From: Sphaerisporangium siamense
Lineage (GTDB): Bacteria; Actinomycetota; Actinomycetes; Streptosporangiales; Streptosporangiaceae
Direction: 5' to 3'
Assembly (NCBI RefSeq): GCF_014205275.1
Contig: NZ_JACHND010000001.1
Location: 1,736,001-1,800,000 of the forward strand
DNA: 64,000 nt
Shown here in pieces: positions 56,218 through 61,288 of this stretch (position 1 is its first letter; each line of letters begins with the position of its first letter). The translations under genes and the position numbers were made by a program. The notes beneath the pieces are model-generated. The model saw nothing but the letters and a program-made list of their open reading frames with translations. It was not told the origin of the DNA and ran no database searches.

Positions 56218-56550
56218 TCAGCCTCGCGGGGCGTACATGATGATCAGGACGCCGAGGAGGCAGATCGTGGCGCCGATGACGTCCCAGCGGTCGGGGTGGA
56301 ACTTGTCGACCACCATGCCCCAGACCAGGGAACCGGCGACGAACACGCCACCGTAGGCGGCGAGGATGCGGCCGAAGTGGGCGTCCGGCTGGAAGGTCGC
56401 CACGAGGCCGTACAGGCCCAGGGCGATGAAGCCGGCGCCGGCCCACAGCAGGCCGCGGTGTTCTCTGACGCCCTGCCACACCAGCCAGGCCCCGCCGATC
56501 TCGGCAAGGGCGGCGACGACGAACAGCAGGAGAGAACGCACAACGGTCAC
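56218..56550 (-). CDS. UPF0060 (YnfA-like) membrane protein
   Basis: GTG 56548-56550 begins 110 residues with four membrane helices and the family motifs [49 protein letters not shown] and [17 protein letters not shown]. The family belongs to the small-multidrug-resistance fold; an efflux role is suspected but substrate unknown. Confidence 0.92.
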
Positions 56551-56617
56551 GGCTGTGACTGTAAGGGACGCTCCCTACCTGCCCGTGACAGCCGCCGCCC
56601 TGGTGCGCGGGTATCGC

Positions 56618-57652
56618 TCATCGCGCGATCTGCGCGGCGGCCCTGGCCGCCAGTGCGTCGAGGACCTCGACCTGGGCCGCGGGCACTTCGACGTCCAGCG
56701 TCAGGTCTTCCGCGCCGGGGGTGAGGGTGAAGGCGAAGAACGAGCAGCATTCGCTCTCTTTGGCCGTCAGATCCCGTGCCGTGCTCTCCACCTGTGCGCC
56801 CGCCGCCAGGGTGAGCCGCAGGCGCGTCGGCCGCACCCGTTCCAGTCCCAGCAGGGCCGAGGCGAACAGGTCGTCGAACTCCGCGACCCGCGACGGCCGT
56901 TCCTCTGTCGGAAGCGCGCACGCGGCCGGCGCCCACTCGGCGTGATCCTGCCGCGCCTGGTCGGGCGTGCAGCAGGAGCACCCGGGTTCGCAGCCGCAGG
57001 CGTCGTCACCGTCGGCCGAGGGCGGCGGCGGGGCGCAGCAGGCGTCGCCCCGCCAGGCGTCCCGGCCCTCTTTGACGGCTACGGCGGCGATGACCAGGGC
57101 GGCGACGGGGTCCGCCCATGACCAGCCGAACAGGGTGTTGAGGAGGAGCCCGGCGAGGAGCACGCCCGACAGGTAGGTGCACAGCAGGGTCTGCTTGGAG
57201 TCGGCGACCGCGCTCGCCGAACCGAGCTCACGGCCGGCCCGACGCTGCGCGGCCGACAGGAACGGCATGACCAGGAGGCTGAGGGCGGCGAGCGCGATTC
57301 CCGGCGTGGAATGGCCGGCCGCGCCGGCTCCGGTGAGGGTCAGCGCCGAATCGACCGCGACGTAGGCGGCGAGGGCGAAGAACGACAGGGCGATGATCCG
57401 CAGGGTGATCCGCTCACGCGCCTGCGGATCCGCGCTGGAGAACTGCCAGGCGACGGCGGCGGCCGAGGCGACCTCGATCACGGAGTCGAGGCCGAACGCG
57501 ACGAGCGCGCCCGAGGAGGCGACCGTGCCCGCGGTGATGGCGACGGCCGCCTCGATCAGGTTGTACGTGATCGTCGCCGCGACGAGCAGCCTGATCCGGC
57601 GGTGCAGCGCCGCCCGGCGTAAGGGGCTCGGGCCGAGACCGACGGTGGTCAC
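56618..57652 (-). CDS. Cation-efflux (CDF-like) transporter fused to a Cys-rich linker and extra C-terminal domain
   Basis: GTG 57650-57652 overlaps the regulator stop. The 344-residue protein begins with a CDF-type membrane domain of about six helices (~15-205), with FGLDSVIEVASAAAVAWQ and VADSKQTLLCTYLSG metal-site regions. A Cys-rich linker (~205-235: CCAPPPP, CGCEPGCSCC) follows. The last ~95 residues (PTRLRLTLAAGAQ; TAKESECCSFFAFTLTP) look like a domain that is a separate small protein in related operons. The fusion would tie metal binding to efflux. Cd/Pb/Zn are likely substrates given the CmtR-like regulator. Confidence 0.8.
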   Translation of the reverse strand: MTTVGLGPSPLRRAALHRRIRLLVAATITYNLIEAAVAITAGTVASSGALVAFGLDSVIEVASAAAVAWQFSSADPQARERITLRIIALSFFALAAYVAVDSALTLTGAGAAGHSTPGIALAALSLLVMPFLSAAQRRAGRELGSASAVADSKQTLLCTYLSGVLLAGLLLNTLFGWSWADPVAALVIAAVAVKEGRDAWRGDACCAPPPPSADGDDACGCEPGCSCCTPDQARQDHAEWAPAACALPTEERPSRVAEFDDLFASALLGLERVRPTRLRLTLAAGAQVESTARDLTAKESECCSFFAFTLTPGAEDLTLDVEVPAAQVEVLDALAARAAAQIAR

Positions 57653-57987
57653 GCGCAGCCCTGTTCGTCGTTCAGGCAGCGCTCGCCGGTGTCCACCGCC
57701 AGCACCACCCCGAGCAGATCGTCTATCGCGTGCGCCAGCCGCGGGTCGGCGATCTCGTACCGGGTCTGGCGCCCTTCCTCGGCCCCGACCACCAGGCCGC
57801 ACCCGCGCAGGCAGGTCAGATGGTTGGACACGTTGGACCGGGTGAGGCCGAGACGCTCGGCCAGCCGCGCCGGATACTCCGGCCCTTCGAGCAGCGCGAT
57901 CAAGATGCGGCACCGGGTCGGATCGGCCAGCGCCTTACCGAGACGGGCCATGGCGTCCATGCGTGTGGCAGCGGTGAGCATGTCCAC
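57649..57987 (-). CDS. cmtR: CmtR-like ArsR-family metal sensor
   Basis: GTG 57985-57987 (or ATG 57979-57981) starts 112 residues. A winged HTH (LAERLGLTRSNVSNHLTCLRGCGLV) carries C59 and C63, and C104 lies near the C-terminus. These sit exactly two residues after the Cd/Pb ligands C57, C61 and C102 of mycobacterial CmtR, so metal ligands are conserved. It should repress the coupled efflux gene until Cd(II) or Pb(II) binds. Confidence 0.88.
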   Translation of the reverse strand: MDMLTAATRMDAMARLGKALADPTRCRILIALLEGPEYPARLAERLGLTRSNVSNHLTCLRGCGLVVGAEEGRQTRYEIADPRLAHAIDDLLGVVLAVDTGERCLNDEQGCA

Positions 57988-58009: not shown

Positions 58010-58208
58010 TACAGTCCAGGCTGAATTCACTTCCCACTGACCAATGGCGCCGGCGTGCGAAGCCGTTCGAAGGGGGTTGCCGGGTCCCTGTCTCCGGGTG
58101 TGCTCGTCAGTTCCCCCGGACGCCGGTGGTGAGGCCGAGGGCCAGCAGAAGCAGGCGGGTCGTCGCGGCCACGGTCACCGCCGTCCGCGGCCGGGCGGCC
58201 CGGGGGCC

Positions 58209-58430
58209 GAACAGGACGACACGGCCGTGCTGCCCGCGCACCGCCGCCGTGGCCTGGCCCGGTGGATCAAGGCCAATCAGACCCTGCTGGTCCGCGAGCG
58301 CTTCCCCGCCGTACGGTCGGTCACGGTGACGGTGAACGGAAGCAACGCCCCCATGCTGGCGGTCAACCGGGCGGTCGGCTACCGCTTCCTGCGCGAACGC
58401 CTGCTCGTGGAGGCGCGCCGCGGAGCGGGT
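58209..58430 (+). pseudogene. C-terminal remnant of a GNAT acetyltransferase
   Basis: The frame reads EQDDTAVLPAHRRRGLARWI, then LLVRERFPAV and SVTVTVNGSNAPMLAVNRAV, GYRF. This is the Q-D-T-x-V-x-x-x-H-R-x-x-G acetyl-CoA loop and the N-x-x-M-x-x-x-N-x-x-x-G-F/Y region of a GNAT protein. No start or N-terminal half is present and no stop follows at a sensible place, so it is a fragment. Confidence 0.6.
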
Positions 58431-58964
58431 TCGGCCGGACCCGCCGGGGAGGCGCCAGGTGACCGGGTGGGGCCACCCGGCGACGTGCCGTCGGAAAGCC
58501 CTCGTCGATCTAGGACTTGGACGGCCCCGGCTCGCGCGGCGGGGCGCGGGGTTCAGGCTCCGGCCACCGGGCCCGGTCCGTATGGCGGCCGCCGCCGCCC
58601 GCCCGGGGTGACGTCGCCGGGGACGCCCTTGGGGGCCGGTGGGCGACCGCTGATGTTCCCCTTGCGATCGGTCTCACCGGGGTGGGGCGTGTAAGCCCGG
58701 GAATCTATCTCGGTGGGCTGTGAATTACCTTTCGGCGGGATCGATCTTCGATTTGTATTCCGGCGTGCTTTCTCCTCTTGCGACAAACTTTGGCGGAGGA
58801 TGGCTGATACGTCGGGCCGGTTCGGCGGGCCGGAATGTGCTGTGCGGCCGGGGATATCGGCGCATGGCGTCGCGGTCGTGGGCCGTGTTTATGGATCGCG
58901 GGCTTGGGGATGGTTGTCGCGTAATCGCCCATTTCGGGCGAAACCCCGAATCCGGGAGGCTCTC
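58431..58964. other. Intergenic, AT-richer from ~58690: probable promoter region of the peptide gene
   Basis: 58431-58680 is extremely GC-rich without a convincing gene. From ~58690 to 58800 composition drops in GC (GAATTACCTTTCGGCGG; TCGATTTGTATTCC), as in promoter regions. I could not identify a clear -35/-10 pair. Overlapping frames here lack RBS and domain signal. Confidence 0.5.
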
Positions 58965-59060
58965 ATGAACGGATTCCTGCCGTATCGCGACTCCAGTCCT
59001 GCTGCCCGCGTCGGTGGCGTCCGCGGCTGGCAGGCGGACATTCTCCGCGGCGAGTCGTAA
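58965..59060 (+). CDS. 31-residue peptide, candidate modified-peptide precursor
   Basis: ATG 58965 is preceded by GGGAGG at ideal spacing, and the frame ends in TAA at 59058-59060. The product starts MNGFLPYRDSSPAARVGG, has a central VRGWQADIL and ends GES. It contains two prolines, one Trp, one Tyr and no Cys. A 13-bp hairpin follows and then a prolyl oligopeptidase with its own GGAGGG. Small genes before S9 peptidases can encode substrates that the protease trims or cyclises. That role is inference; no other RiPP enzyme is seen nearby. Confidence 0.5.
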   Translation: MNGFLPYRDSSPAARVGGVRGWQADILRGES

Positions 59061-59070
59061 CCCAGTAAGC

Positions 59071-59106
59071 CGAGGTACTGCGGTGCGTAAAGGCCGCAGT
59101 ACCTCG
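59071..59106 (+). terminator. Hairpin between peptide gene and peptidase (terminator or attenuator)
   Basis: CGAGGTACTGCGG (59071-59083) pairs perfectly with 59094-59106 around a 10-nt loop; no T-run follows. Placed 10 nt after the peptide stop and 37 nt before the peptidase start, it could set a high peptide-to-enzyme ratio by partial termination or mRNA stabilisation. Confidence 0.7.
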
Positions 59107-59143
59107 ACCCGTCGCAGGGGTGGCGATATATCCGGAGGGCTTT

Positions 59144-61288
59144 GTGGCGCGATTGTCGTATCCCGCCGCCTGGCGCGGCGATACGGTGGACGATCTGTTC
59201 GGTTTTCCGGTCGCCGATCCCTACCGGTGGATGGAAGACGCCGAGGACGCGCGCGTGCGGGACTGGGCCGCGGCGCAGGATCGTCTCTTCCAGGTGTATC
59301 GCGCCGGATGGCCGGAGCGCCGGCTGTGGGCGTCCCTGCTGGACGAGGTCTCCTCCTTCGGCGTGTCGGAGCCCCCGACGGTCCGCGGCTCCGTCATGTT
59401 CCTCGTCGAGCGGGCACGGGGCGACGAGCAAGGCCGCCTGCTGGTCGTCGGCCCCGAGGGCGACACGCGGACGCTGGTGGACCCGGCCGAGATCGACCCG
59501 TCCGGTCACACCGGGCTGTACGCCTGGTGGCCGTCGCGCGAGGGCGAACGGGTGGCCGTCCAGATGGAGGTCGCCGAGCAGCCCGGCAGCGACATCATGG
59601 TCCTCGACGCGCGCACCGGCGAGGCGGTGGACGGGCCGTTGCCGCGCGCCCGCAACACCTCGCTCGCCTGGCTGCCGGGCGGCGAGGCGTTCTACTACGT
59701 CAGCCGTGTCGCCGAGGAGGAACTGGCCCCCGGCGACATGCGCCTCCAGCGGCGGGTGCGGTTGCATCGGATCGGTTCGCCCTGGCAGGACGACACGGTG
59801 GTGTTCGGCGGCGAGGACGCCCCGGACCACTATTACGGGCTCACGGTCAGCCCCGACGGCCGTCATCTGGCGATCACCGCGACGGCCGGGCCCGCCTCGC
59901 ACAACGACGTGTACGTGGCCGAGCCGGCCGATCCGAGGTCCCCGCGCTTCAGCAAGATCGTGGACGGGCGTGCGACCGGGGCCCGCGTCCTGCCGCGCTT
60001 CCTGCCCGGCGACGACCTGCTGCTGGTCACCGACCACCAGGCCCCGTGCGGCCGCATCTGCGTGGCGCGCCGGGACGGCGCCGGCCCGGCCGCGTGGCGG
60101 ACGCTGGTCGCCGAAGATCCCCAGGCCCCCTTGGACGAGTGCGTGGTGCTGGACGACCCGGCACTTCCACGGCCCCTGCTGCTGGTGGCGCGCACCCGGC
60201 ACGGCGCCTCCACCCTGACCCTGCACGACCTGGCCACGGGCCGGGCTCTCACCGCCCTGCCCCTTCCCGGCGCGGGCGTGGTGTCATCCCTGCGCGCCGG
60301 CACGCCCCACGGCCGCCAGGCCTGGTTCGGCTACTGCGACGCGACGACACCTCCCACGATCTATCGCTACGACGCCCTCAGCGGGGAGATGGAACGACAC
60401 GCCGGCGCCTCCATAGCCGGGCACCGTCCGCGAATCCGCGGCGGCGGCGTCCGCTGTCGCGCCGGAGACGGCACCGAGATCACGCTGTTCCTGTTCACCC
60501 CGGACGAAGAAGACCAGGGCCCCCGTCCGACCCTGCTCTACGGCTACGGCAGCTTCGGCATGCCGATGCGGCCATGGTTCTTCCCCATGGCCGCCGCCTG
60601 GGTCGGCGCCGGGGGCACCTACGCGCTCGCCTGTGTCCGCGGCGGCGGCGAAGAAGGCCAGAGCTGGCACGACGCCGGCCGCGGGCCGCGCAAACACCGC
60701 GCGGTCAGCGACTTCAACGACGCCGCCGCCTGGCTCATCGATACGGGCCGGACCACGTGCGACCAACTGGCCGCCTTCGGCCAGTCCGCCGGCGGCCTCC
60801 TGGTCACCGCCGCCGCCGTGCAACGACCGGAACTGTACGCGGCGGTCGTCGCCGAAGGCCCGCTGTGTGACATGGTGCGCTACGAGAACTTCGGCCTGGG
60901 ATGCACGTGGACCGACGAGTTCGGCACCGCCGCCGAACCCGAACAGCTCCAGTGGCTGCTCCGCTACTCGCCGTACCACGCCGTCAAACCCGGAGTCCCC
61001 TATCCCGCGTTCCTGTTCACCGGCGCGGTCACCGATCTGCAGACCGGGGAGGCCCACGTCACCAAGATGTGCGCGGCCCTGCAACACGCCACCAGCGGTG
61101 ACCGGCCGATCCTCATGCGCCGGGACCCCGACACCGCCCACGCCGCCTTCTCCGCGAGCAAGGAACACGCCCTGGCCGCCGACATCCTCACCTTCGCCGC
61201 GGAACACACCGGCCTGTCGCCGACGCCGGGCGTCGCCGTCCGGGGACCATGCCTTCGGGTTACGGCAGGACCAGTTCCTGGACCTTGA
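59144..61288 (+). CDS. Prolyl oligopeptidase (S9A family)
   Basis: I chose GTG 59144 with GGAGGG directly upstream (an earlier in-frame GTG at 59120 lacks an RBS), giving 714 residues. N-terminal YPAAWRGDTVDDLFGFPVADPYRWMED and the beta-propeller (~75-420) are followed by an alpha/beta-hydrolase domain. Catalytic residues: S548 in GQSAGG, D631 in VTDLQTG, H666 in DTAHAAF. There is no signal peptide, so it acts in the cytosol, cleaving after proline in short peptides. The 31-residue peptide just upstream is a plausible substrate. It overlaps the convergent gene by 29 nt. Confidence 0.9.
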   Translation: MARLSYPAAWRGDTVDDLFGFPVADPYRWMEDAEDARVRDWAAAQDRLFQVYRAGWPERRLWASLLDEVSSFGVSEPPTVRGSVMFLVERARGDEQGRLLVVGPEGDTRTLVDPAEIDPSGHTGLYAWWPSREGERVAVQMEVAEQPGSDIMVLDARTGEAVDGPLPRARNTSLAWLPGGEAFYYVSRVAEEELAPGDMRLQRRVRLHRIGSPWQDDTVVFGGEDAPDHYYGLTVSPDGRHLAITATAGPASHNDVYVAEPADPRSPRFSKIVDGRATGARVLPRFLPGDDLLLVTDHQAPCGRICVARRDGAGPAAWRTLVAEDPQAPLDECVVLDDPALPRPLLLVARTRHGASTLTLHDLATGRALTALPLPGAGVVSSLRAGTPHGRQAWFGYCDATTPPTIYRYDALSGEMERHAGASIAGHRPRIRGGGVRCRAGDGTEITLFLFTPDEEDQGPRPTLLYGYGSFGMPMRPWFFPMAAAWVGAGGTYALACVRGGGEEGQSWHDAGRGPRKHRAVSDFNDAAAWLIDTGRTTCDQLAAFGQSAGGLLVTAAAVQRPELYAAVVAEGPLCDMVRYENFGLGCTWTDEFGTAAEPEQLQWLLRYSPYHAVKPGVPYPAFLFTGAVTDLQTGEAHVTKMCAALQHATSGDRPILMRRDPDTAHAAFSASKEHALAADILTFAAEHTGLSPTPGVAVRGPCLRVTAGPVPGP

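Follow-up and report, generated by a model that had tools for sequence, protein, structure and literature searches.

The described systems that come closest to the one reported here are fungal and plant pathways in which a prolyl oligopeptidase (POP) makes a cyclic peptide. PMC6514808 describes the fungal MSDIN precursors as carrying a hypervariable core between invariant prolines that are cut by POPB, and this enzyme is reported to hydrolyze first and transpeptidate second (PMC6514808; PMC11253845). In the plant pathway, as the same two papers present it, the 32-residue precursor presegetalin A1 yields a six-residue ring through the action of PCY1. The known POP substrates are characterized in PMC12235650 as short unmodified peptides of fewer than 37 residues, and the same source indicates that recognition of the follower, the segment behind the core, matters in GmPOPB and PCY1 but not in OphP. 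Among bacterial enzymes, FlaP is the POP named in PMC10885120. Here we analyze a two-gene unit from the actinomycete Sphaerisporangium siamense that joins a gene for a 31-residue peptide to one for a POP of family S9A, and we compare it with these pathways for ribosomally synthesized and post-translationally modified peptides (RiPPs). The unit lies in a stretch of 64,000 nucleotides (contig NZ_JACHND010000001.1, positions 1,736,001 to 1,800,000 of the forward strand), referred to below as the window and numbered from its first letter.

The unit and its parts, in which the leader, core and follower have predicted boundaries, are as follows.

58965-61288, + strand: two-gene unit of peptide gene and POP gene, with the span given correctly by an earlier sequence-only reading.
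58954..58959, + strand: Shine-Dalgarno sequence of the peptide gene, GGGAGG, with the ATG 5 bases downstream; strongly conserved.
58965..59060, + strand: gene for the precursor peptide, 31 residues, MNGFLPYRDSSPAARVGGVRGWQADILRGES; supported by its open reading frame (ORF), homologues, linkage and a frame test.
58965..58982, + strand: putative leader, residues 1-6, ending in Pro6; ratio of nonsynonymous to synonymous differences (pN/pS) 0.30 for residues 2-6.
58983..59000, + strand: putative core, residues 7-12, YRDSSP in the window, ending in Pro12; recognized by its variability.
59001..59057, + strand: putative follower or recognition sequence, residues 13-31; pN/pS 0.28.
59071..59106, + strand: intergenic RNA hairpin of 13 bp with a 10-base loop; supported by pairing, covariation and G-U variants.
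59134..59139, + strand: Shine-Dalgarno sequence of the POP gene, GGAGGG, identified from the sequence.
59144..61288, + strand: S9A POP of 714 residues with a GTG start; identified by Pfam and by alignment to solved POPs.

The sequence-only reading had listed the 31-codon ORF with its Shine-Dalgarno sequence, a perfect 13-bp hairpin and an S9A POP with its own ribosome-binding site, and each was found where it had been placed. The peptide gene behaves as a protein-coding gene. Its frame is free of stops in all 39 distinct homologous stretches, compared with 4 to 33 of the 39 for the other five frames, and it gives the highest amino-acid identity among these stretches (0.753, the nearest being one reverse frame at 0.731). 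Mean entropy in the peptide ORFs is 0.77 at the third codon position as against 0.44 and 0.28 at the other two, and the median ratio of nonsynonymous to synonymous substitution rates (dN/dS) is 0.28 (38 ORFs; 702 of 703 pairs giving a finite value). The frame test and the linkage to the POP rule out a chance ORF. Searches of Pfam and NCBIfam with the peptide gave no match.

The association of peptide and enzyme was surveyed in 345 genomes of the order to which the window belongs, Streptosporangiales, with a cut-off of E<=1e-195 for the POP clade and of E<=0.001 for the peptide profile. The clade is present in 48 of these genomes and the peptide in 49, and 47 have both. In the 48th clade genome (G115) a contig end cuts off the first half of the POP, as judged by comparison with record L099; in another genome (G109) the two genes lie on separate contigs; and in a third (G111) the peptide stands beside POP remnants, identified by eye among the listed ORFs. 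The peptide match in G362 is weak and partial (24 bits, residues 3-22), with no POP seen adjoining, and is taken as chance. At that locus (L170, near 2052-2111) the match lies about 1.2 kb upstream of an ORF that by eye resembles a protein-isoaspartate methyltransferase; it could be fortuitous or part of an unrelated short precursor. Among 100 relatives, a POP of 79% identity or more occurs in nine genomes (its own included), and exactly these nine match the peptide at E<=1.6e-9.

A scan of one genome per species across 84,980 species, which reports close relatives only because short stretches of the POP had to match exactly, found 39 loci, belonging to Planotetraspora, Sphaerisporangium, Acrocarpospora, Actinomadura, Rhizohabitans, Microtetraspora, Microbispora, Actinoallomurus, Sinosporangium, Streptosporangium, Nonomuraea and one unplaced Streptosporangiaceae metagenome-assembled genome. 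Taking both sources together, the peptide lies upstream of the POP in 46 of 48 clade loci (45 by pattern, plus L103), 7 of the 46 being duplicates between genome collections, and the other two loci (L095 and L099) begin within the POP. In the wider class, the peptide profile finds 28 of 394 genomes at a cut-off of E<=0.01. For six of them, all in the window's own family, E<=1e-11; the remaining 22 matches are weak and partial (best E per genome at least 3.1e-4), and of these G362 was inspected and the rest were taken as chance.

The peptide accompanies this clade of POPs rather than POPs in general. Upstream of 22 canonical POPs we found 99 short ORFs, none resembling the peptide; several of them match each other from locus to locus, as overlapping frames within a single conserved stretch. 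No such peptide was found upstream of 20 further POPs outside the clade. The ORFs common to those 20 loci look like tails of larger neighboring genes, and the loci contain one chance match to the six-letter leader pattern and none to the pattern Pro-core-Pro-R-R-W, which recovers 39 of 39 true peptides. Gene families near 36 loci, within flanks of up to about 6 kb, were also compared: 35 of them yielded a POP call, and the family next in frequency is found at 9. This survey took in ORFs of at least 90 residues with codon bias and could thus miss very short genes. A Pfam scan of five window neighbors together with the 36-locus survey likewise revealed no modification gene common to these loci. 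On this evidence the unit consists of two genes. The sequence-only reading had proposed just such a compact unit, with the peptide as dedicated partner of the POP, and had made conservation beside orthologous peptidases the test of its proposal; the 47 of 48 clade genomes, with the last truncated by its contig, bear this out.

The anatomy of the peptide is regular. All 40 distinct peptides, from 46 distinct ORFs, have 31 residues, all 40 carry Pro6 and Pro12, and the intervening core, residues 7-12, is always six residues long. Arg15, Gly17, Arg20 and Leu27 are invariant in the 40, Tyr7 is kept in 37, and 38 of 38 peptides counted have Trp22, the Nonomuraea type having its Trp at position 21. 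Residues 8-11 form the most variable four-residue stretch, a variability equaled by 16 of 20,000 random picks of four positions, and their pN/pS is 1.14, compared with 0.30 in the leader and 0.28 in the follower (43 ORFs; three Nonomuraea-type ORFs excluded). There are 15 different cores: YRDSTP, YSSTGP, YRDSGP, YRETGP, YRDSSP, YRETTP, YRDGAP, YRETSP, YAQTSP, YSGSTP, YTANQP, YTSTGP, YAANAP and, in the Nonomuraea type, DAAYRP and VEAYRP. The three divergent peptides of this last type (L103, from a genome named Nonomuraea, and those with the same genus code, g4) have other cores and keep the spacing of the two prolines. On a quick tree of 33 POPs, in which 11 of 30 branches are weakly supported and left open, the core changes at least 19 times. 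The core YSSTGP occurs in four genera whose POPs form no single group in this weakly supported tree, a pattern that suggests repeated origin or exchange of cores.

Our retrieval patterns demanded Pro6, one of them also the second proline, and the set of 40 kept only peptides with both. The sequences left out by these filters were inspected: L103 has both prolines, the G111 peptide (not among the 40) has both, and two were chance ORFs. The constancy of the prolines is not an artefact of filtering, because every locus with upstream sequence had a fitting peptide, apart from the weak case of G362.

The POP has both domains of an S9A enzyme (Peptidase_S9_N, PF02897, 6.5e-51; Peptidase_S9, PF00326, 1.1e-38). 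Alignment to solved POPs places the catalytic triad at S548, D631 and H666, an assignment that follows the porcine POP numbering, and these residues are invariant in 33 clade sequences. W589, the proline-stacking Trp, and F471 of the proline pocket are kept in the same alignment, the pocket residues being assigned as PMC12235650 describes them. Relative to 22 paralogues, 64 positions carry clade-wide replacements (conserved in at least 94% of the clade and at least 86% of the paralogues), and 35 of these fall within residues 80-425, approximately the propeller. Near the active site, Ser-Asn has become Ser-Ala, Asp-Thr-Arg-Val has become Asp-Leu-Gln-Thr and Gly-His-Gly has become Ala-His-Ala. 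By these sequence comparisons the clade enzyme is a remodeled POP with its catalytic residues in place. The genome of the window encodes a second POP, 46% identical to the first.

Two constant prolines around a variable core of six residues point to excision of the core, and perhaps to ring closure, in the manner of POPB or PCY1 rather than to removal of a leader in the manner of FlaP. The sequence-only reading had suggested RiPP-type maturation by the POP, with FlaP as its example: the dedicated pairing of peptide and enzyme is supported, and the constant prolines and the variable core are features that it had not anticipated. In the scenario we envision, the POP would bind the conserved follower of the ribosomal precursor, release the leader by a cut after Pro6 and make a second cut after Pro12, whereupon Tyr7, the new N-terminus of the core, would most likely attack the acyl-enzyme and close a head-to-tail ring. 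The product would be cyclo(YRDSSP) in the window and other rings in its relatives, and the intergenic hairpin would probably allow the small upstream ORF to outexpress the enzyme. We regard excision of the core by this POP as likely; ring closure, by analogy with the fungal and plant enzymes, appears somewhat better than even once excision is granted. The full proposal, in which the core is freed most likely as a cyclic hexapeptide and the hairpin favors the peptide, we put just short of an even chance.

Several observations weigh against this proposal. In place of the Arg that follows the catalytic Asp by two residues in POPs, the enzyme has Q633. Arg occupies this position in 22 of 22 paralogues; 32 of 33 clade members carry Gln there, and the one from Nonomuraea carries Leu. 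PMC5648786 describes this Arg as highly conserved in POPs and hydrogen-bonded to the substrate, and reports that the equivalent change in GmPOPB, R663Q, reduced both hydrolysis and cyclization, so the clade enzyme need not act like POPB. The solved chains nearest to it in sequence are the ordinary bacterial prolyl endopeptidases 2bkl and 3iuj, and PCY1, OphP and GmPOPB rank lower. We found no feature that separates a macrocyclase from a protease, and ring closure is thus argued by analogy. An AlphaFold model built on the 33-row alignment was poor (mean predicted local distance difference test score 56.5) and was not used. Inspection by eye, without a predictor, revealed no hydrophobic signal in the peptide, and no neighboring family recurs often enough (at most 9 of 36 loci) to qualify as a dedicated gene for export or immunity. 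Finally, the variable stretch at residues 8-11 could be a relaxed linker.

The hairpin between the two genes is a conserved RNA structure. Its arms (59071-59083 and 59094-59106) match perfectly over 13 bp in the window, and among 34 distinct sequences the stem is paired in 98.9% of cells. Eight cells in three pairs have changed on both sides (0 of 500 shuffles reach eight cells, 45 of 500 reach three pairs), G-U variants are common, and 5 of the 13 pairs never vary. The stretch folds 3.2 standard deviations better than shuffles. Other identities were considered for this element. As an intrinsic terminator it is rejected: a terminator search found none, and the 20 bases that follow the matched stem contain TTTT in 0 of 39 stretches. 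As a DNA operator it is rejected likewise, since frequent one-sided G-U variants favor RNA and the palindrome occurs once in the genome; Rfam gave two sub-threshold matches only. A conserved RNA structure that lacks a U-tract makes tuning of stoichiometry plausible, and the hairpin may be an mRNA-stability or attenuation element that favors the peptide.

Four other explanations of the pair deserve consideration. In the first of them the POP only hydrolyzes, and the linear hexapeptide, mostly of the form Y-x4-P, is an intracellular or imported signal whose sequence is specific to the lineage. POPs are proteases by default, the bacterial RiPP enzymes FlaP and MpcP are described as removing leaders (PMC12951456), the active site is altered at Q633, and the anatomical evidence is identical to that for a ring. 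A plain protease, however, has no obvious need for a conserved follower of 19 residues, and in GmPOPB and PCY1 the follower is reported to guide cyclization, though OphP works without it; we consider this explanation unlikely, yet a serious one. Should the active product instead be the linear C-terminal segment, residues 13-31, freed by a cut after Pro12, residues 7-12 would be a mere spacer. The follower is the most constrained part of the peptide, and a pN/pS near 1 at residues 8-11 is also compatible with a relaxed linker, but such a spacer would have kept a single length in 40 distinct peptides and Tyr7 in 37 of them, and Pro6 would be retained to no purpose. The genome with a decayed POP also bears on this point. 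In G111 (L169:3068-3163; genus code g86, as in the Actinoallomurus loci) the peptide ORF still reads, Arg replaces Trp22, and the POP beside it is by eye broken up with pieces absent. Loss of Trp22 alongside the enzyme fits a follower that serves the enzyme, in this single case, and we judge a C-terminal product improbable.

The strict pairing, with no other widely common gene, would also suit a peptide that regulates the enzyme, as a dedicated inhibitor or a pseudo-substrate held in the propeller, rather than serving as a precursor. A pN/pS of about 1 between two potentially cleavable prolines would be unexpected in an inhibitor, and we give this explanation little credence. Least probable, in our estimate, is a regulatory leader ORF, one that when translated would open or close the structure lying between it and the POP gene. 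The hairpin begins 10 bases past the stop codon and covaries as RNA, and the minimum-energy fold of the window's own sequence adds five pairs, in which bases immediately 5' of the stem bind the final two of the POP Shine-Dalgarno sequence and the three that follow it. Against this, the five pairs are absent from the consensus fold of 35 sequences, the stem is without a U-tract in 39 of 39 stretches, and the leader and follower show protein-type patterns of substitution.

Two further elements precede the peptide gene.

58925..58941, + strand: 6-bp hairpin TCGCCC/GGGCGA in the 5' leader of the peptide gene; supported by pairing and covariation.
58887..58910, + strand: promoter-like motif GTTTAT..GATC...GGC..GGGGA, 78 to 55 bases before the peptide start; conserved.

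The 5'-leader hairpin pairs in 96.8% of cells over 36 sequences, and two-sided changes affect 4 cells in 2 pairs; alone, it is not unusually stable in the window (z 0.27). The promoter-like motif stands upstream of the orthologues, and 32 of 39 stretches have it in a loose form. When two or fewer mismatches are allowed, the 8.5-Mb genome contains it once. A search for sigma-70 type promoters gave no match. The motif may resemble stress or sporulation (sigma-B type) promoters and may be a mark of control by an alternative sigma factor. Farther upstream, an ORF at 58044-58694 (+ strand) has a middle part that by eye resembles the C-terminal end of a GNAT acetyltransferase, with no Pfam match, and is possibly a gene remnant. 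An ordinary metal-response set lies at 56218-57987 (- strand): an ArsR-type regulator, a cation efflux protein and a YnfA/UPF0060 protein, consecutively.

If our proposal is correct, bacteria would join fungi and plants in using prolyl oligopeptidases to produce cyclic peptides, and they would do so by a very small pathway of one peptide and one enzyme that uses natural amino acids only. RiPP searches keyed to modifying enzymes would overlook such a pathway. It would account for the second, strongly altered POP kept in several actinomycete genera, and it would offer a new peptide-cyclizing tool from soil bacteria. The prediction is concrete: a single enzyme, a single synthetic peptide and a single mass. 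For the window the computed [M+H]+ would be 706.3155 for the ring and 724.3260 for the linear hexapeptide, with 1998.06 for the follower; a relative with the core YSSTGP would give 593.2566.

How, then, does the pair compare with what has been described? Bacterial POPs that act on ribosomal peptides are already represented by FlaP and MpcP, but these are reported to trim the leaders of modified peptides, a class III lanthipeptide and the clavusporins. A lanthipeptide pathway of the FlaP type would have a synthetase in the cluster and rings formed from Cys and Ser or Thr; here no second gene family is common to the loci (at most 9 of 36) and Cys is found in 0 of 40 distinct peptides. The precursor of the biarylitides is a pentapeptide. 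Their minimal clusters resemble this unit in being very small, and PMC12951456 notes that some adjoin a POP; the very short precursor described there is, in contrast, cross-linked by a cytochrome P450, and no P450 belongs to the unit described here, as no second family is common to more than 9 of 36 loci.

The likeness to fungal MSDIN precursors and POPB is one of anatomy. A short unmodified precursor carries a variable core between constant prolines, within a conserved leader and follower, as described for the substrates of GmPOPB, and as in the fungal systems one dedicated S9A POP shares its genome with an ordinary POP paralogue. The differences are that this pair is bacterial, that leader and core measure 6 and 6 residues rather than the 10 and 8 given for the studied Galerina precursor, that Gln replaces the Arg conserved in GmPOPB, and that the enzyme is nearer to ordinary POPs by sequence. 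With the Caryophyllaceae-type orbitides, of which segetalin A is the described example, the pair shares a six-residue core, a precursor of similar size (32 residues there) and an S9A enzyme that is guided, there by report and here by prediction, by the follower. PCY1 is described as leaving removal of the leader to others, whereas here one POP would make both cuts, and unlike in the PCY1 system the core ends in Pro in every member. Among the titles and opening lines of abstracts in the open PMC literature we found no bacterial POP macrocyclase or peptide of this kind. We tentatively suggest, at somewhat less than even likelihood, that the pair represents a two-gene bacterial RiPP class in which one POP frees and cyclizes a hexapeptide from a 31-residue unmodified precursor, and that it is the first bacterial counterpart of POPB and PCY1. 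Such a class would probably have evolved independently from an ordinary actinobacterial POP. Its RiPP logic and its enzyme family are already known; what is new, within the literature that could be searched, is their two-gene bacterial form with a core set between two prolines.

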